This document shows positions 30,883-45,095 of a stretch of 64,000 nt of DNA, piece by piece. Positions within the stretch are counted from its first letter, which is position 1. Each line of letters opens with the position of its first letter. Source of the DNA: Pseudomonas sp. FEN. GTDB taxonomy: Bacteria; Pseudomonadota; Gammaproteobacteria; Pseudomonadales; Pseudomonadaceae. The notes beneath the pieces are model-generated. The model saw only the letters and a program-made list of their open reading frames with translations. It was not told where the DNA came from and did not search any database. The translations under genes were made by a program, and so were the position numbers. The stretch is taken from NCBI RefSeq assembly GCF_904067045.1, contig NZ_CAJFDC010000036.1, positions 1,194,001-1,258,000 on the forward strand, given 5' to 3'.

Positions 30883-30961
<79 letters not shown>

Positions 30962-31000: not shown

Positions 31001-31007
31001 CGTTTTT

Positions 31008-31061
31008 GCTCAACACTTTGCTCAACACTTCTTTCGGGCTGCCCTTCTCTGCTCAACACTT
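31008..31061. repeat. Three copies of GCTCAACACTT (integrase arm-type sites, left)
   Basis: GCTCAACACTT at 31008-31018, 31020-31030 and 31051-31061; the first two have a 12-bp period. The same 11-mer occurs twice near the other end. Tandem short repeats close to both ends of a tyrosine-integrase element are the usual form of arm-type binding sites. Confidence 0.65.
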
Positions 31062-31344: not shown

Positions 31345-31538
31345 CTGAGGATTTTGAGAATTTTGCGGAAAGCCCCGCCATTGTTGGGTTTGCGACTGAG
31401 GAAGGTTTGCGGAAGGTTGAGGATTTTTTGGCGGCGGCGTCTTTTTCTCCACGCTTTCCGCACTTCTCCGCAAAACCTCCTCAACCGCTAAGGCCCGGTT
31501 TTACTAGCTTTCCGCTGTTTCCTCAAAATCCTCAGCCT
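31345..31538. repeat. Iteron-like repeat cluster, candidate origin
   Basis: The units CTGAGGATTTTGAG, TTGCGGAAAGC and TTGCGGAAGGTTGAGGATT occur in forward orientation (31345-31430) and their inverses (GCTTTCCGC, TCCGCAAAACC, CTCAAAATCCTCAG) between 31453 and 31538. The outermost pair forms an imperfect 29-bp inverted repeat. The right side overlaps the end of the DUF3987 gene. Such clusters mark replication origins in satellites; origin function is inferred. Confidence 0.45.
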
Positions 31539-33306
31539 CCACAGCCAGGTTAATGCTGAAGTGCTTGCCGTCAGTGGTTAGCAGGTGGTGATGCGCCGCC
31601 AGCACGGCCAGCAATCGGTCGCGCGCATTGGCACTCTTGCGGGTGGTGGGCGGCCCTGATTTGCCCAGCTTGTCGCGGTGGAACTCTTGCCAGTCACCCG
31701 CCCGCTTCGGGTCGCACAGCCACTCCATTAGCGCAGCTGCCTGCTGTAGTAACGGGTCAGTTGCAGCACTGTCCGTATACCGCCGCCATTCGGAAAGTGA
31801 GTGGCGGACTATCGCAGTAGCACGGCACATACACTTGTCGTCAATTTCGGTCTTACCTTCAAAGCAGGCAAAGACGGCAGCCAGGCGACGGACAATTTCA
31901 CCAGCGCGGCCAGCAAAGGGGCGCAGATTGGCAAACTTACCGAGGGCGGATTGCTCGCCCTCAACCTCATTGTAAAACTCAAGCCAATCCTGTTCGGCTT
32001 CATGGGTCAATTGCAGCACGGGCGGCTTAACTTCGCCTGTCTCGTGGTCAATCGCTTGGGGGGTTGCTGCAATAGCCTCACAACGCGCCCAGTAGCGCTG
32101 TAGTCGCGTGTCGGTATACGCCTTTCGGCCTAGCTGCTCAGCAGAGAGAAGGCGTGTCCCGGCAATACTGGCTGGGCTGGCGAACAGAAAGCGTGGCAAG
32201 AAGCCCTGACCACGCAACAGCGGATCTGCCAATGCGTCACACACCGTCACGGCCTGCGCCAGCAGGTTAAGGCTCAGGCGGCGGTGATAGGCACGCCCGG
32301 AACCTTCAGCGTTGCCGTTTGAGCGAGTGCGCTCAACGCCTCCAGTGTCAAACGCTTTGGTCAGGGCGCCCAGGGTTGCGGCGCGGGTGTCTGCTTTGAG
32401 CGATGCACCGCCCAGCACTTGGCCGCCCTCATCCGTGTCCCAGCAGGCGGCAGACATACCGCGAATAAATGCACCGGCAATCGGTTCAAAGGTGGCGTCC
32501 GTGAATTGCGTGCGCGGGTCGGCTGGCCGTGGGTTCTCTGCTAAGTGCTGCGCTAGCTCTTTGCCTTTAAGCCCCTGCGCAAACGAGTCCATTTCGGCGC
32601 AGGCTTTCTTGTGATCGCTATCAGCCTTCTTTTCGGCCTCATCTATCGTCTTGGAAGCCAAGGCTCGACACCCACTCTTACGGTCGCCAGAGTCGGCCAG
32701 AGTCAGCGTGAACAGAGAGCAAGGCATACCATCAGGGTTGTGAATATGTGGGGCGTTAACACGGGTCTGCGCCAAGTAGACAGCCGCGCCTATAACGCAC
32801 TGCGCAGCCAGCGCCAACGGTGCCTGTACATGCTCAGCAATGGCTCGGGCGGCATCACGCATAAGGGGCGGTAGTGCCTCGATAGGGTAGGGCTCTGCGG
32901 TCTCCAATTCAGGCAATAGCGGGCGCGGTTCGGGGCACGGCTCCAGTATTTCGACACTATTTAACCCTCCACGGGTTGTGTCTTTCTGGCTGGTGTATAT
33001 CTTTTTGGTAGCGATACCGTTAGCTGTAGCCGCTGCCATAAGCATCTCAGCCGTCCATTGCTTATCAGCAGGCAATCGGCCAGGGTCTGTTATAGCACTA
33101 GGCTCGTCGGCAGGCGGCTCAGGCTCCTTTGTTGGCGTATTGGAGTGCTCAGGTATTGGCAAGTTCTCACAATGCCCGATACCACTGTCAAAGTCGGCAT
33201 TAGACGCCACCACATACGTTTCTAGGGGGGGCACGTCTCTAGCGGGCATATTGCCAATGTCGGTGACGCCGTGCGGATCGTTGTCCGGCTCACAGGGCAT
33301 ATTCAT
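31504..33306 (-). CDS. DUF3987 (YfjI-like) protein, probable replication function
   Basis: Seen: 600 residues, with the block YPIEALPPLMRDAARAIAEHVQAPLALAAQCVIGAAVYLAQTRV around 135 and LTLADSGDRKSGCRALASKTI near 200, hallmarks of the DUF3987/YfjI group found in P4-like elements and cryptic prophages. The N-terminal 120 residues are acidic and low-complexity. The family is thought to act in element replication, but no Walker A of standard form is visible (the SGDRKSG loop is only suggestive). It sits next to the iteron-like repeats and ends the leftward gene set; the HTH gene upstream is four bases away. Confidence 0.75.
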   Translation of the reverse strand: MNMPCEPDNDPHGVTDIGNMPARDVPPLETYVVASNADFDSGIGHCENLPIPEHSNTPTKEPEPPADEPSAITDPGRLPADKQWTAEMLMAAATANGIATKKIYTSQKDTTRGGLNSVEILEPCPEPRPLLPELETAEPYPIEALPPLMRDAARAIAEHVQAPLALAAQCVIGAAVYLAQTRVNAPHIHNPDGMPCSLFTLTLADSGDRKSGCRALASKTIDEAEKKADSDHKKACAEMDSFAQGLKGKELAQHLAENPRPADPRTQFTDATFEPIAGAFIRGMSAACWDTDEGGQVLGGASLKADTRAATLGALTKAFDTGGVERTRSNGNAEGSGRAYHRRLSLNLLAQAVTVCDALADPLLRGQGFLPRFLFASPASIAGTRLLSAEQLGRKAYTDTRLQRYWARCEAIAATPQAIDHETGEVKPPVLQLTHEAEQDWLEFYNEVEGEQSALGKFANLRPFAGRAGEIVRRLAAVFACFEGKTEIDDKCMCRATAIVRHSLSEWRRYTDSAATDPLLQQAAALMEWLCDPKRAGDWQEFHRDKLGKSGPPTTRKSANARDRLLAVLAAHHHLLTTDGKHFSINLAVEAEDFEETAES

Positions 33307-33309
33307 TAT

Positions 33310-33603
33310 TTAGGTCGCCTCGCGCAATAATACATACAGCGCAACACCATGATGGGTGCGACCTTGGTCGTCGGTCGCACTAATACGCTGGGTGTGTATC
33401 GGGTGGCCGCGATCTTTAAGCTCTTTGATCCTGGCGGCAGGCATCAAGATATTCAGCTCGCTGCGGGCGGTCAGGGTGTCTATAGGACCGTTACTACGCA
33501 TCCAATTGAGCAACCGGCGACGTTGAGCACTACCGCTATCGCTAGTAGGATGGCTGGTGAATGTATTGTGGCTGGCCGTTTGGTCGGCCTTTTTTTTGTC
33601 CAT
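33310..33603 (-). CDS. Small helix-turn-helix protein (HTH_39-like)
   Basis: 97 residues. Seen: a winged-helix core RRRLLNWMRSNGPIDTLTAR then LNILMPAARIKELKDRGHPIHTQRI, matching the pattern of HTH_39 phage proteins that precede replication genes. The N-terminal 25 residues are polar and probably flexible. It lies between AlpA and the DUF3987 gene with gaps of two and three bases to its neighbours, so one transcript is likely. Exact role unknown. Confidence 0.65.
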   Translation of the reverse strand: MDKKKADQTASHNTFTSHPTSDSGSAQRRRLLNWMRSNGPIDTLTARSELNILMPAARIKELKDRGHPIHTQRISATDDQGRTHHGVALYVLLREAT

Positions 33604-33605
33604 GA

Positions 33606-33803
33606 TTAGGCCACCTCGCCCTGACGGGTAGCCAGCCAGGCATCAAGCTCGGACTTGCGATAGCCCACGGCACGGGTGCTCAGCTTGATTTTGCGAGGGA
33701 AGCCCTCAGTCTGGGAAAGACGCCAAAGGGTTACAAGCGAGATACCGCCCAGGTAGTCTGCGGCGGCTTTGTTGCGGTAAATGGTGTCGGTTGCTTGGTT
33801 CAT
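33606..33803 (-). CDS. AlpA-family phage regulator
   Basis: Seen: 65 residues from MNQATDTIYRNKAAADYLG, with the AlpA HTH ISLVTLWRLSQTEGFPRKIKL and the C-terminal GYRKSELDAWLATRQ. AlpA proteins activate excision or integrase genes in cryptic prophages such as CP4-57. I take the ATG at 33803 rather than 33818; GAGG stands nine bases upstream. It is the first gene of the replication cluster. Confidence 0.9.
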   Translation of the reverse strand: MNQATDTIYRNKAAADYLGGISLVTLWRLSQTEGFPRKIKLSTRAVGYRKSELDAWLATRQGEVA

Positions 33804-34053: not shown

Positions 34054-34851
34054 CTACTGATTGAGGCAGAGAGGATAATTTCGATAGTCCGACCTGGAGT
34101 CAACTTTGCAGATTTGTTTTCCAGCAGCACTAAACAAATAAAGGACTTCATCCCTACCGTGATCCGGGGAAATCTCATTACGCCAGACCAGCACATTCCC
34201 AATATGTTTTGAAGAGTTACTGAGCCCAAAGTCAATCATCACGAAATCTACTCTACCTGGGCCCAAATATTTAGGGTGAGGTTTCTCCCCCTGAAGCACT
34301 GGCGACACTGGAAAGAAATATATTGCGTCACTAGTCGCCCATGCCGGGGTTTGGAAATAGACAATTTTGTTGAAATCGTCATATCCAGTGATATGAAAGT
34401 CATCAATGGATTTAGACGGGTCGTCATCTGGCTTTTGAGTCATAAGCTCCGTACGCATGAGACGCCCCGTATTTTCGTCTACACGCAGCAAAATCAGCGC
34501 GGCTCTATAGCCGCCTGCCGAGTAATCCTCCCCGCTTTTTAAACGCTGGTGAGCCGTAACAATAGCGGCAGATCCATTTTTAAAAAAACCATTCATTCCG
34601 GAGGTAACCTCCATTCCGGGGCCCGCAGCCCACTGGGTAACCTCCTCACCCGTGTAGCAAACCTGGTGAGTGTCAAACTGAGAGTTCATTTCTAACCCTG
34701 TATGCGGCAGCGCAATGAAGTGGTCTTTCCCACGCGATTTCAAAGATTCGAAGCCATCGAGGCAATCCTGCTTCTCGGCGAGAGCATAGTCAGAAATCAG
34801 AAAAACGATAGGGAGCAAAAGCACCCCTAGAGTTTTGTGGATGGGAGTCAT
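34054..34851 (-). CDS. Exported protein of unknown function (element cargo)
   Basis: 265 residues. Seen: an N-terminal signal peptide (IHKTLGVLLLPIVFLISDYALA-E, cleavage near residue 25), four cysteines in the mature part that could form disulfides (CLDGFES, QVCYTGEE, KQICKVDS, YPLCLNQ), and no recognisable domain. It is predicted to be periplasmic or secreted. Composition is AT-richer than the backbone. As cargo of a satellite it may be a fitness or exclusion factor; nothing in the sequence shows which. Confidence 0.6.
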   Translation of the reverse strand: MTPIHKTLGVLLLPIVFLISDYALAEKQDCLDGFESLKSRGKDHFIALPHTGLEMNSQFDTHQVCYTGEEVTQWAAGPGMEVTSGMNGFFKNGSAAIVTAHQRLKSGEDYSAGGYRAALILLRVDENTGRLMRTELMTQKPDDDPSKSIDDFHITGYDDFNKIVYFQTPAWATSDAIYFFPVSPVLQGEKPHPKYLGPGRVDFVMIDFGLSNSSKHIGNVLVWRNEISPDHGRDEVLYLFSAAGKQICKVDSRSDYRNYPLCLNQ

Positions 34852-35035
34852 GACGCAAGCTCTCCTTAGCGGTGGGGCGGGCCCGCTTTATCTAGGCCCT
34901 CCGGTGTTTGTAGGTGTCTGACATTACGCCAGTTAAAAGATCAGGTCGATTGTTCGCGGTAGTAATGGCAGCTACCTGCCCTCCCTCACAGATCCGTACA
35001 CCAGCAGCATTGGCACCATCGTTTTTAGATGGGGA

Positions 35036-35761
35036 TTAAGAAGCTGAACCTTCTCGCCAAATTTCCTCGGCCTCTCTAATCAGCGCCTCCAAGCCATTTT
35101 TCTTAATACCTACCGCCTTCAAGACTCCATCGCAAAATTCAGCAAATGGCCCCATTGCTCCACCTGCCGAGCCTTTTCGCTGAAATTTCGGCTCGCCATC
35201 ACCCGCCCGCGCCCAAATGGCAAGCAATGCGCGAATGGCCTCCTGCCGAACCATGTTCCCGCCTTTAACCTTTTGAGCGGGTTCAGTGGGCTTAACATCT
35301 GGTATTAAAGAAATTAAATCACCAAGTCGACACAGAAGCGACTTCTCCAGCGTTCGACTTCCGACTGTTCCTGCGGGGGTCAGAAACATGGCCTCCGTCG
35401 CACCAATTGCAGAACTCAACTCTAAAGGTGTTCTCCCTTCACTCAAGAGCTTATATAGCGTATCCGCAGAGTCTCTAATCTTTTTCAAGTGCATCTGGTG
35501 GTCAAAGTCGAACTCTTCAGGCACCACCCCCCCTTTCGGCAAGCCCTGATTCTCAAATTCCCGCCAAACAGCAAGGGGGCTTGCATTACATCTAGCCAAG
35601 TCATGAGCGAGTTCTGAAAGAGCAATATCAGGAGTCGCACCTTTCTCCTTCACCAAATAACCAAATAAATAACCTTCCAACCCATGAACCACATCGTAGT
35701 AGCTCCGAGGCTTGCGCATGACCGCCATTCTCTTTTCAAGACTCTTACTCCTGCTAACCAT
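35036..35761 (-). CDS. Unknown protein next to the integrase (element cargo)
   Basis: 241 residues, cytosolic, helical, with no family I recognise. Seen: a basic start (MVSRSKSLEKRMAVMRKPRS), a stretch SYYDVVHGLEGYLFGYLVKEKG and a C-terminal FAEFCDGVLKAVGIKKNGLEALIREAEEIW. It overlaps the integrase stop by eight bases, so it is translated from the integrase transcript. Position beside the integrase suggests an element-specific accessory (defence, or recombination helper); this is inference. Confidence 0.6.
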   Translation of the reverse strand: MVSRSKSLEKRMAVMRKPRSYYDVVHGLEGYLFGYLVKEKGATPDIALSELAHDLARCNASPLAVWREFENQGLPKGGVVPEEFDFDHQMHLKKIRDSADTLYKLLSEGRTPLELSSAIGATEAMFLTPAGTVGSRTLEKSLLCRLGDLISLIPDVKPTEPAQKVKGGNMVRQEAIRALLAIWARAGDGEPKFQRKGSAGGAMGPFAEFCDGVLKAVGIKKNGLEALIREAEEIWREGSAS

Positions 35762-37190: not shown

Positions 37191-37229
37191 CTTGAGCCCC
37201 ATTTCACACGCCCTCTAGACCGTTTTCAT

Positions 37230-37252
37230 GCTCAACACTTTGCTCAACACTT
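37230..37252. repeat. Two copies of GCTCAACACTT (integrase arm-type sites, right)
   Basis: GCTCAACACTT at 37230-37240 and 37242-37252, with the same 12-bp period as the first two left copies. They lie between the integrase start and attR. Confidence 0.65.
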
Positions 37253-37376
37253 CTCGGAAATACAAGGGAATCTTGCGTAATCCTCAGAAAGCACTAAAAC
37301 CCGACAAAGCCCATTAACTGCGGGACTTTCAGGCGTTTTAATGTTTCGTTGAATTTCTCAGGGTTTCGCTTGAAAA

Positions 37377-37427
37377 TGACTTGTAATCAGTAGGTCCCGG
37401 GTTCGACTCCTGGTGCCGGCACCATAT
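37377..37427 (+). repeat. Right direct repeat (att)
   Basis: Exact 51-bp copy of the tRNA-Thr 3' end. No 5' half, so not a functional tRNA gene. Confidence 0.95.
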
Positions 37428-37592: not shown

Positions 37593-37760
37593 GTGGAAAA
37601 GCTGAGTTTTCAAGCCAAAAAAGCCTACTTCGCCAAACACCGTAAATCCAACTTCGCGGCCAGCTTGCGCCTCGAGGGTTTTACGACCTCTCCAAATGAC
37701 GATCACAAGCTTCCCACTCGCGAAGCTGCGCTCATGGCCGTTCGGCAAATCAAAGCTTGA
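37593..37760 (+). CDS. ficA: Fic antitoxin (YhfG/FicA family)
   Basis: 55 residues starting at a GTG: VEKLSFQAKKAYFAKHRKS, then NFAASLRLEGFTTSP. The helix contains SLRLEG, which fits the inhibitory motif [S/T]xxxE[G/N] of class I Fic antitoxins, whose glutamate blocks ATP binding in the toxin. Its stop overlaps the TTG start of the toxin by four bases (TTGA), the tight coupling expected of a toxin/antitoxin pair. The frame is too short for most gene finders but the motif and context make it convincing. Confidence 0.85.
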   Translation: MEKLSFQAKKAYFAKHRKSNFAASLRLEGFTTSPNDDHKLPTREAALMAVRQIKA

Positions 37761-38380
37761 GTAGTAATGACAAATACGGGGTCGATCAGGATCCCTACTG
37801 TTACCAGGGAACAGGTACCCTCAAAAACCTACTTGATTTGCATGATGAAGACGACCTCAACGAGGCCGAACGCTATCTCACCGAAGCTGCCGCAGAGCGG
37901 CTTGAGTTCATAGAGCCGCCATACAGCCTGGATACTCTGAAACAAATTCATCGTACCCTATTCTCGGCTATCTATAGTTGGGCCGGCGAGATCCGGACGG
38001 TAAAGATCAGCAAAGGTGGAAATCAGTTCTGCGTCCCTGACCGCATAGAGCCGGAAGCCGCCAGAGAATTCCGAAAAGTCGAGTCCTACGGCTGGCTTGA
38101 AGGCTATTCACGCGACTTACTGGTCAAAGCCGTCGCCGAGTCCTACGGTACGTTGAACGTCGCACATCCCTTCCGAGAAGGTAACGGACGAGCCCAGCGG
38201 ATGCTGTTCGAATGGATCATCGTCAACGCGGGTTACGAGATCAATTGGTGGGAAGTCGACAAACAAGAATGGATTGAAGCGAATCATCAGTCATTTCATG
38301 GCGACGATGGCCCGCTGATCCAGATATTTGATCGTTGCATTGGTCTGCCGATCATGGAAGACAATGCAGACGACGCCTGA
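37757..38380 (+). CDS. fic: Fic-domain AMP-transferase toxin
   Basis: Transfers AMP (or a related group) to target proteins; bacterial FicT toxins often modify gyrase and topoisomerase IV. Seen: 207 residues with the complete active-site motif HPFREGNGRAQR near residue 136 (His base, Gly-Asn-Gly-Arg anion hole) and a beta-hairpin flap GGNQFCVPD upstream. The start is TTG at 37757, overlapping the antitoxin gene. It follows the satellite element directly and may belong to an older island at the same tRNA. Confidence 0.92.
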   Translation: MSSNDKYGVDQDPYCYQGTGTLKNLLDLHDEDDLNEAERYLTEAAAERLEFIEPPYSLDTLKQIHRTLFSAIYSWAGEIRTVKISKGGNQFCVPDRIEPEAAREFRKVESYGWLEGYSRDLLVKAVAESYGTLNVAHPFREGNGRAQRMLFEWIIVNAGYEINWWEVDKQEWIEANHQSFHGDDGPLIQIFDRCIGLPIMEDNADDA

Positions 38381-41660: not shown

Positions 41661-42466
41661 CGGTGGTTTCTGTATTAACGATTATTTGCCTTAGTAGCTT
41701 GTTCGGAGCCATCTTCTGTGTTCGACCTACTTGATGAGAAAAGTCGAGGGCTGTGATCTTCAGCGATAGGTAAAAATAGTGTTGAGGCGACTCTGAAAGC
41801 ATCTATAACGAATAGAGAGTACCCACAAAACGCCCATATCTTTCGAGGAAGTACGCTGTATATCTCCCGTATAAGCCTTAAAAAACGTTGCAGTAGGACC
41901 AAGTGAACACAGGGCCCGTACCTGGGGATCGAATGGGGATGGATTTATTTTTGGTTATGTTCAAAATAAATCCGCCCCCTTTTTAGCGCTAGATGGATCA
42001 CATACAACTCGCAAGCGACACCTTCGCCAAGCAAACTTAATCCAGAACGCAATATATCAACGCTGGATGATTGACACCCCCTGGCGATGGAAGCAAAAAC
42101 ACTTAATTTGGTTCATAGCCACAAAACTAAAAAATCACAGCAGGCACAGCATTTACTATTACGCACTAACAATAAACATAATAGCGAAAAGACTAAGCAA
42201 GGACCAAACATGGGCGTGCCTTGCCCGCGATAAACACAGTTCAATTTGTGCAAGCTCAAACACAACCAGTAAAAGCACCAAACCATCACCGAACAAAATT
42301 CATTCACAAAAAATCAAAACTCCACAAAATAATACTAACCATACAAAAGTTCAGAGCAGTATGACCACACACAAGCCAATTTAAATACAACAAAAACAGC
42401 TGGCCAAATATATTCCGTCCAGCTAACATATCTCACAGGCACGAACCAAGAAAGGCGTGAAATAAC
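41661..42466. other. AT-rich decayed stretch
   Basis: About 800 bp of markedly low GC with no convincing gene; short frames here lack protein-like composition. It contains an 11-bp perfect inverted repeat (41941-41973). Confidence 0.5.
41941..41973. repeat. Perfect 11-bp inverted repeat
   Basis: GGATTTATTTT (41941-41951) and AAAATAAATCC (41963-41973) around an 11-nt spacer, followed by GCCCCCTTTTT. Similar GGATTTATTTT/AATAAATCC ends border some transposon remnants in Pseudomonas, so this may be the end of a dead element. Weak. Confidence 0.4.
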
Positions 42467-44115: not shown

Positions 44116-44354
44116 GCTGTGCGCCCTGTATTTCCCCGGGTGTCCAAGCCCGTATCGCTGAATTTGCAGCGACACTTGAACGGTAGCCCTGGCGTTTGGC
44201 GCACGCAATATTCTCCCATGCCTGAAACTCGTGGGAAATATGAGTTTTTTCAGCAGGCCATTTCGATAGAGTGTCTGCTGATCGCGGCCAACTCCATTCC
44301 CCTCACAAATTTACGCCTGCGCCCCTTCCAGCGATATCATATTGCCTTCACCCA

Positions 44355-45095
44355 ATGATCGTGAGAGCCGCAGTGAAGGAAGCAAAAACAAGGAAGCGTG
44401 TTTCTGTCGTTGGGAGGGACCCACTCCTGAAAAAAATACTGACCGCCTGGATCGCAACAATCGAACGTTACACAGACGGCTGCACGGACAATCCCTGGTG
44501 GTACAACGAACGCGCCTCGCTAAGCCTATTGGCCGGTGCGGCCTGGTCCATGGAGGGTTGGGTTGCCATGGAAGAGTTCAGTACTCAGAAGCGCTTCAGA
44601 ACATTGGCGCCCGGCGTCGACGCCGGTAGTCTTCGGCACGGGCGCTGCGATCTGTACATCGCCTGCCCGTCAAAAAAAGCCAGTTTTGCATTCGAAGCGA
44701 AGCAAGCCAATCAGCCCATTGGCAAGCGCGCCGATGGATACAGCTACATGCACAAGGCAATGAAAGCAGCCTGGAAAGACTCCGGAGATCTACATCGAGA
44801 CGAGGCCGATCGGCGCTTTGCTGCCACCTTTGTTGTTCCGACGCTTCGGTTGAAAGAAATCGCTCCAGAAGACGGAAAGCCAGGAGAAATTTGTCCTGAA
44901 CGTCTCGACGAGCACATAGCGGCCTGGCTGAAGGAAAATCCAAGATTTTTGGGCGAGTCCTGGAAAGAGACCTCTTACGCATACGTCTTTCCACAAATTG
45001 GAAATGAGCGCTATTCAGACGGCGTTCGTCATTTTCCAGGCGTCATCCTCATTCTGGAGGAACGTTACAAGGCTAACCGCTTGGTTACGTCCTAG
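44355..45095 (+). CDS. Unknown protein with possible PD-(D/E)XK nuclease-like core
   Basis: 246 residues from MIVRAAVKEAKTRKR. Seen: a central GRCDLYIACPSKKASFAFEAKQAN in which an Asp and, after a strand, E-A-K lie as in PD-(D/E)XK nucleases, and an N-terminal part YTDGCTDNPWWYNERASLSL then LAGAAWSMEGWVAMEEF. No family is certain. A 46-residue frame (44218-44358) overlaps its start by ATGA, so a short upstream gene is possible. It lies just left of the phenazine locus; nothing links the two functionally. Confidence 0.55.
   Translation: MIVRAAVKEAKTRKRVSVVGRDPLLKKILTAWIATIERYTDGCTDNPWWYNERASLSLLAGAAWSMEGWVAMEEFSTQKRFRTLAPGVDAGSLRHGRCDLYIACPSKKASFAFEAKQANQPIGKRADGYSYMHKAMKAAWKDSGDLHRDEADRRFAATFVVPTLRLKEIAPEDGKPGEICPERLDEHIAAWLKENPRFLGESWKETSYAYVFPQIGNERYSDGVRHFPGVILILEERYKANRLVTS

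Follow-up and report, generated by a model that had tools for sequence, protein, structure and literature searches.

A small tRNA-Thr-borne element of Pseudomonas with a PICMI-like gene plan, a gene overlapping its integrase and a putative exported cargo protein

What are the two genes that lie next to an integrase gene in a 64-kb stretch of Pseudomonas DNA (the window)? The original prediction took both of them, here named A and B, as cargo of a phage satellite. Both genes are present as predicted (Table 1). Neither protein has a match above the curated cut-offs in Pfam or NCBIfam, up to E=1 in PADLOC (0 families) or up to E=0.1 in PHROGs, where the best match of A has E=0.13. This agrees with the proposal that they belong to no known family.

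Table 1. Features of the element and its target site (window coordinates).
Feature	Coordinates	Strand	Evidence
tRNA-Thr (tgt), integration target, stays complete	30883..30958	+	ARAGORN, Rfam RF00005
Left attachment repeat, 54 bp	30908..30961	+	direct repeat D1, spacing 6466
Presumed left arm sites for the integrase, TGCTCAACACTT in three copies	31007..31061	+	arm-site role inferred
Presumed primase/helicase for replication (DUF3987 protein of 600 aa)	31504..33306	-	PF13148 E=2.7e-51; phrog_2373 DNA helicase E=1e-40
Winged-helix protein HTH_39, 97 aa	33310..33603	-	PF14090 E=7.6e-17
AlpA-like regulator/excisionase, 70 aa	33606..33818	-	PF05930 E=1.2e-8, 35.1 bits vs cut-off 21
Gene A (cargo), 265 aa, exported protein with four cysteines	34054..34851	-	ORF list, relatives, sequence features
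Gene B, 241 aa, ATG start inside int stop region (8-nt overlap)	35036..35761	-	
Tyrosine integrase, 482 aa	35754..37202	-	PF00589 28 bits vs cut-off 27.1; phrog_1 integrase E=1.3e-28
Presumed right arm sites for the integrase, TGCTCAACACTT in two copies	37229..37252	+	
Right attachment repeat, 54 bp, 98% identical to left	37374..37427	+	

The two genes are part of a real, small, well-bounded and mobile element. It is 6.47 kb long and holds six minus-strand genes between 54-bp repeats, 6466 bp apart. The gene order is int, B, A, alpA, HTH_39 and DUF3987, which places A and B between the integrase (PF00589) and AlpA (PF05930). The compact integrated element that had been predicted, with its integrase, AlpA and primase/helicase-like genes, is contained within the repeats. 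The left repeat overlies the 3' part of tRNA-Thr(tgt). The two chromosomal flanks were joined (junction at position 142) and searched for in 29 genomes, the element's own and 28 others. An unbroken match over the junction was found in seven genomes of the same genus: G004 (1-171, 93%), G017 (1-174, 91%), G011 (1-182, 87%), G010 (1-174), G013 (20-174), G014 (38-178) and G001 (38-170). The remaining matches cover the tRNA side only. The uninterrupted sites in relatives indicate that the element is a real insertion.

Short repeats are found just inside both ends. TGCTCAACACTT has five matches in the 64-kb window, three on the left and two on the right, located only at the element ends; 0.19 would be expected by chance with at most one mismatch. 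This placement is what integrase arm sites would show, and we presume that role. Promoter and terminator scans gave only chance-level matches. Just beyond the right repeat is a YhfG-Fic pair (37593-38380; PF10832, PF02661; PADLOC candidate PDC-S04, E=1.1e-75). Further right, a 105-aa ORF (42067-42384) resembles by eye a 91-aa protein of tRNA-Thr/tmRNA islands (L076:3673-3948), and may mark the remnant of a second island.

Six genomes whose joined-flank match ended at tRNA-Thr were checked. Four of them (G006, G002, G016, G018) contain another, partial repeat, 16-17 bp long, at a distance of 6 to 12 kb; no second repeat was found within the stretch retrieved from G005 and G009. Unrelated islands occupy the same tRNA-Thr in four Pseudomonas genomes besides the window's own (L076, L078, L079, L081). 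Six island proteins from G006, G002, G016 and G018 were scanned for defence models. G002 has HamB and HamA of Hachiman, G006 matches a retron-type III-A model and G018 gives a weak match to PDC-S58 (6.8e-10); two proteins had no match. The Hachiman and retron-type matches indicate that this site receives defence islands. Such neighbours speak for a defence role of A, but this is guilt by association.

A sister element with the identical six genes in the same order is located beside tRNA-Met in genome G196, bounded by a 46-bp repeat, 6583 bp apart. The presence of near copies in two different tRNA genes, tRNA-Thr and tRNA-Met, indicates that the lineage moves. Protein identities between the two are 64% for the integrase, 94% for B, 72% for A, 97% for AlpA, 57% for HTH_39 and 80% for the DUF3987 protein. 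When the local sequence was simulated 5000 times with a first-order Markov model, an ORF of at least 200 aa began within an 80-nt stretch in 2 runs. These simulations, together with the relatives of A and B in G196, place both genes beyond chance. In the sister element TGCTCAACACTT has two matches with two mismatches versus 1.21 expected, meaning that the motif is absent. This is expected if its differing integrase uses other sites.

Comparison of the two elements in 100-column alignment blocks revealed a mosaic. Identity is 93-98% in a stretch that runs from 34894 across all of B into int, up to 35893, and 95-98% over most of alpA (33598-33796). It is 65-83% over A (34094-34893) and 30-72% over the remaining int. 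The synonymous divergence agrees with this pattern: 0.04 in B, 0.08 in alpA, 0.26 in DUF3987, 1.2 in int, 1.3 in HTH_39 and 1.4 in A. We read this as suggesting that the integrase body and the target were swapped jointly while B and the 3' end of int stayed, and that A is probably an old, constrained allele (dN/dS 0.127). The pair would illustrate how an int gene can gain a new body, and with it a new target, yet keep its 3' end and the gene overlapping it.

The overlap between the start of B and the stop of int reads ATGGTTAG in both known copies, and the G196 copy of B has equal length and start. The G+C content of B is 49.7%, compared to 62% for int. The two copies differ at 22 sites (6, 8 and 8 in the three codon positions), which change 15 amino acids, and dN/dS is 0.64. 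This gives no clear sign of purifying selection, and no strong constraint can be seen over so short a distance. B is present in 2 of 199 genus genomes including its own, and in its own genome only among 293 of the order. No homologue was found in scans of IMG/VR and genome contigs or in phage and plasmid records, and a sequence search of the PDB gave nothing up to E=1. The single-sequence model of B is unusable (pLDDT 46.6; nothing below E=1 in Foldseek). Sub-threshold matches to DUF1842 (Pfam, E=0.12) and AmcA (NCBIfam, E=0.018) were rejected. B as the excisionase was also rejected, because AlpA is already there and B has no helix-turn-helix match.

The position next to the int stop was inspected for ten integrases, that of the window among them: nine from a set of 12 integrase genomes (all but G010, G179 and G052) and that of G158. 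IMG/VR locus L069, with a 28% integrase, is outside this set. A gene of at least 200 aa starts at the int stop in three of the ten (window, G196 and G106). Among the other seven, one has 62- and 189-aa ORFs near the stop, one has a 66-aa ORF, and five have no ORF of at least 55 aa there. The G106 gene encodes 205 aa and overlaps int by 4 nt (ATGA), in an element at tRNA-Met with AlpA-like, HTH_39-like and primase-like proteins. It has no similarity to B (hhalign probability 0.9%). A check proposed with the original prediction was whether other elements with the same core have different cargo here; the closest element, G196, carries the same two genes, and G106 has another gene in the place of B and no A. 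The sole other genus match of the G106 gene, in G030 (E=7.8e-4), is inside a 3187-aa ORF on the opposite strand and was dropped as chance. Next to the nearest IMG/VR integrase (67%, on a phage-like contig), a 136-aa ORF begins 4 nt after the stop, without overlap. Beside that integrase a 257-aa protein (L066:7391-8164) is encoded that, judged by eye, looks similar to one of 274 aa in the window (44271-45095); no PHROG match was found.

Diverse genes at int stops are also the picture given for PICMIs in the portions of the PICMI report used here (PMC10803314). According to these, a gene termed iolg overlaps int and is essential for excision of PICMI115. It is found in 21 of 35 PICMI subfamilies, with overlaps of 1, 4 or 13 nt, and with contiguous genes comprises 13 families of unknown function. 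The int overlap in both copies and the PICMI115 precedent make integrase partner the likelier role for B, ahead of cargo. By this analogy, B is probably part of an excision module. The claim that both genes are cargo is supported for A; for B, in view of the overlap and the iolg position, it is not supported.

The predicted A protein begins with MTPIHKTLGVLLLPIVFLISDYALA followed by EKQDC. Its signal peptide was judged from two features rather than by a trained predictor: a hydrophobic segment, whose best mean hydropathy over 11 residues is 3.04, and an A-x-A site that ends at residue 25. Cysteines 30, 65, 248 and 262 are invariant in all five aligned relatives. An exported protein with four cysteines, as proposed, is consistent with these features. 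In the plasmid pAU10 copy the annotated start is inside the gene, and an upstream ATG gives the full signal peptide. The IMG/VR copy has a frame break between its signal-peptide segment and the remainder of the gene, at a short CTGCCTG tandem (L065:7960-8060) that is conceivably a phase-variable tract. Export is thus supported by the other four copies.

A is found in 3 of 398 genus genomes including its own, and among 185 genomes of the class in its own only. It is present in 1 of 72,556 plasmid records (pAU10), in 0 of 50,697 phage records, in one IMG/VR contig and in one species-genome contig, that of P. palleroniana LMG 23076 (counted with G158). Three of the five known copies are in tRNA-borne elements (window, G196, G158), one is in the prophage-like IMG/VR contig and one is in pAU10. 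All five are thus in mobile or extrachromosomal DNA. The G158 element measures about 21.7 kb, has a 47-bp repeat and, like the window's, ends in this tRNA-Thr. It encodes an integrase, primases, an HTH_39 protein and a tail assembly protein. There, A starts 100 bp after a match to the PADLOC defence candidate PDC-S64 (E=5.9e-49). In pAU10, an abortive-infection-family gene is about 2 kb from A, across the record start. In the IMG/VR contig, A follows a tail gene, genes that by eye are of lysis type, and a DNA methyltransferase gene. Three copies (window, G196, IMG/VR contig) have no recognised defence neighbour. With the pAU10 protein as query, IMG/VR and phage records gave nothing and plasmids only pAU10 itself. 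IMG/VR scans with A alone, the DUF3987 protein or int alone led nowhere, and a distant DNA search of the A and B genes on plasmids returned one 46-bp piece only. Homologues in a housekeeping context, named beforehand as the result that would speak against the original prediction, were seen in none of the searches made.

These observations show that A behaves as cargo. It has a low G+C content (47.7% versus 55.7% for the element), is exported, has invariant cysteines, and shows dN/dS of 0.13 in addition to its five mobile contexts; the dN/dS with the 72% relative in G196 is 0.127, and a second value is 0.164. A as a phage structural protein was rejected for lack of a PHROG match. We regard A as a small, constrained, exported cargo family whose envelope role is testable.

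A structural model of A was built from three sequences. It is weak and mostly beta (pLDDT 58.6, pTM 0.58). Its best Foldseek match in the PDB has E=7.7e-4 (TMq 0.36), and its best match in a viral structure library has E=2.6e-4 (TMq 0.35). The best VIA-align match has a Z score of 10.1, with 164 aligned residues and an rmsd of 3.7. Neighbours of the model include sialidase, oligogalacturonate lyase, peptidase and sugar-enzyme propellers. Most of the top-listed PDB neighbours are beta-propeller proteins from many unrelated families. By sequence, A has one PDB match at E=0.44 and none better. The model offers a hint that A may resemble a beta-propeller.

P4-like satellites and PICIs carry an integrase, an AlpA-type regulator, a replication gene and cargo, and redirect capsid or packaging through Sid, Psu, Delta or TerS. 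The element shares these four components with them. Searches of Pfam and PHROGs gave no match to Psu/Sid/Delta, TerS or other packaging genes among its six genes. PICMI115, as far as the portions of its report used here go (PMC10803314), likewise has no packaging or capsid-redirecting genes. The element also resembles PICMI115 in its size of about 6 kb, its integrase, int-stop-overlapping gene, AlpA and DUF3987-type primase, its single gene between alpA and prim, the absence of a capsid gene and its accessory cargo. PF00589, AlpA PF05930 and DUF3987 (PF13148; primase activity predicted), the last with DUF5906 as its alternative, help to define PICMIs and are all present, and an int-overlapping gene is present by position only (8 nt, two elements). 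Integration at fis, the PICMI hallmark (PMC10803314), is lacking, and the element was therefore rejected as a PICMI proper. Unlike PICMIs in that description, the element is at tRNA-Thr and its sister at tRNA-Met, the overlap is 8 nt, the host is Pseudomonas, and the cargo is located between the overlapping gene and alpA instead of between prim and the attachment site.

The element is PICMI-like in its set of genes and in their order. It extends a known kind rather than forming a new one. The same portions of the PICMI report (PMC10803314) count 135 int/alpA/prim elements in complete genomes, of which the 67 found in Vibrionaceae are the smaller ones, and describe complete PICMIs from Vibrio only, with incomplete variants elsewhere. 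They also name activation by virulent phage and concatemer packaging as PICMI traits. A literature search by title and the start of the abstract, with subscription papers outside its scope, gave no Pseudomonas element of this kind. The near-PICMI plan at tRNA genes in two Pseudomonas elements makes the Vibrio/fis boundary testable. The tmRNA islands I23, I44 and I55, in the part of their report used here (PMC12595487), are like the element in their Pseudomonas host, tyrosine integrase, AlpA, RNA-gene target, direct repeats, variable cargo and absence of transfer genes. They differ in being much larger, in the tmRNA target, in a YqaJ/RadC/Gp2-like core and in their known defence cargo. I55 was moved by a jumbo phage (PMC12595487).

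We propose that this is a minimal integrative element working as a PICMI-type satellite, with B as excision helper and A as envelope-defence cargo; we hold this reading to be about evenly balanced between right and wrong. The integrase would recombine the tRNA-Thr repeats, with AlpA triggering excision. B, translated together with the integrase, would aid the Int/AlpA excision complex, as PICMI115 iolg suggests. The DUF3987 protein would presumably replicate the excised circle, and a phage would carry it. We infer the phage satellite nature and the mobilisation by phage from the sequence. A would act in the periplasm and guard its lysogen-like host from other phages at the envelope (superinfection exclusion), probably with two disulfides and perhaps a beta-propeller fold; phage exclusion at the envelope is our best guess only for its function. 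Several findings argue against this proposal. The B overlap of 8 nt differs from the 1, 4 or 13 nt reported and the fis target is absent. Seven of the ten inspected integrases have no gene of at least 200 aa at the stop. PICMI defence cargo is described between prim and fis (PMC10803314), which is not the place of A. Further points against it are the lack of clear purifying selection in B, the missing overlap at the nearest IMG/VR integrase, the absence of PADLOC matches for A and B, the three copies of A with no recognised defence neighbour and the weak model of A.

It is rather unlikely that A and B are both cargo, as independent fitness or anti-phage genes with B captured directly behind int. 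The low G+C content of B, its rarity, which is like that of A, and the lack of clear purifying selection would fit such a capture, but the overlap is kept in two elements with different targets, G106 carries a different overlapping gene in the place of B, and PICMI115 iolg is a precedent. A somewhat better, though still tentative, case can be made for A as ordinary host-fitness cargo, such as a periplasmic binding, sugar-acting or stress protein. Its export and the enzymes among the neighbours of its weak model favour this, but structural matches of this type are generic for beta-propellers, the sequence match to a solved structure is no better than E=0.44, and all five copies are in mobile or extrachromosomal DNA. 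We consider it unlikely that the element is a small genomic island of the ordinary kind, immobile or moved by general transduction. The lack of packaging or capsid-redirecting matches would agree with such an island; however, the described PICMI115 has none either (PMC10803314), related elements with HTH_39 or similar integrases carry tail-assembly and head-protease genes (G158, G183), and the near copies in different tRNA genes speak for a moving lineage. A bolder extension of the PICMI-type satellite reading is that complete PICMI-type satellites exist beyond Vibrio, have changed from fis to tRNA by an integrase-body swap, and carry a new class of satellite cargo, an exported, disulfide-bonded, propeller-like periplasmic protein that stops rival phages at the envelope ahead of DNA entry; we regard this as improbable.

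A search of the element's own genome with phrog_2, which we take to be a terminase family, gave no match and is uninformative on helper prophages. In two related tRNA-borne elements, a tail assembly protein (phrog_32) is encoded near one end (L055:3611-6365; L007:7058-7660), and one of them also carries a head maturation protease (phrog_80). Through these phage genes the elements might hijack a helper or interfere with it.
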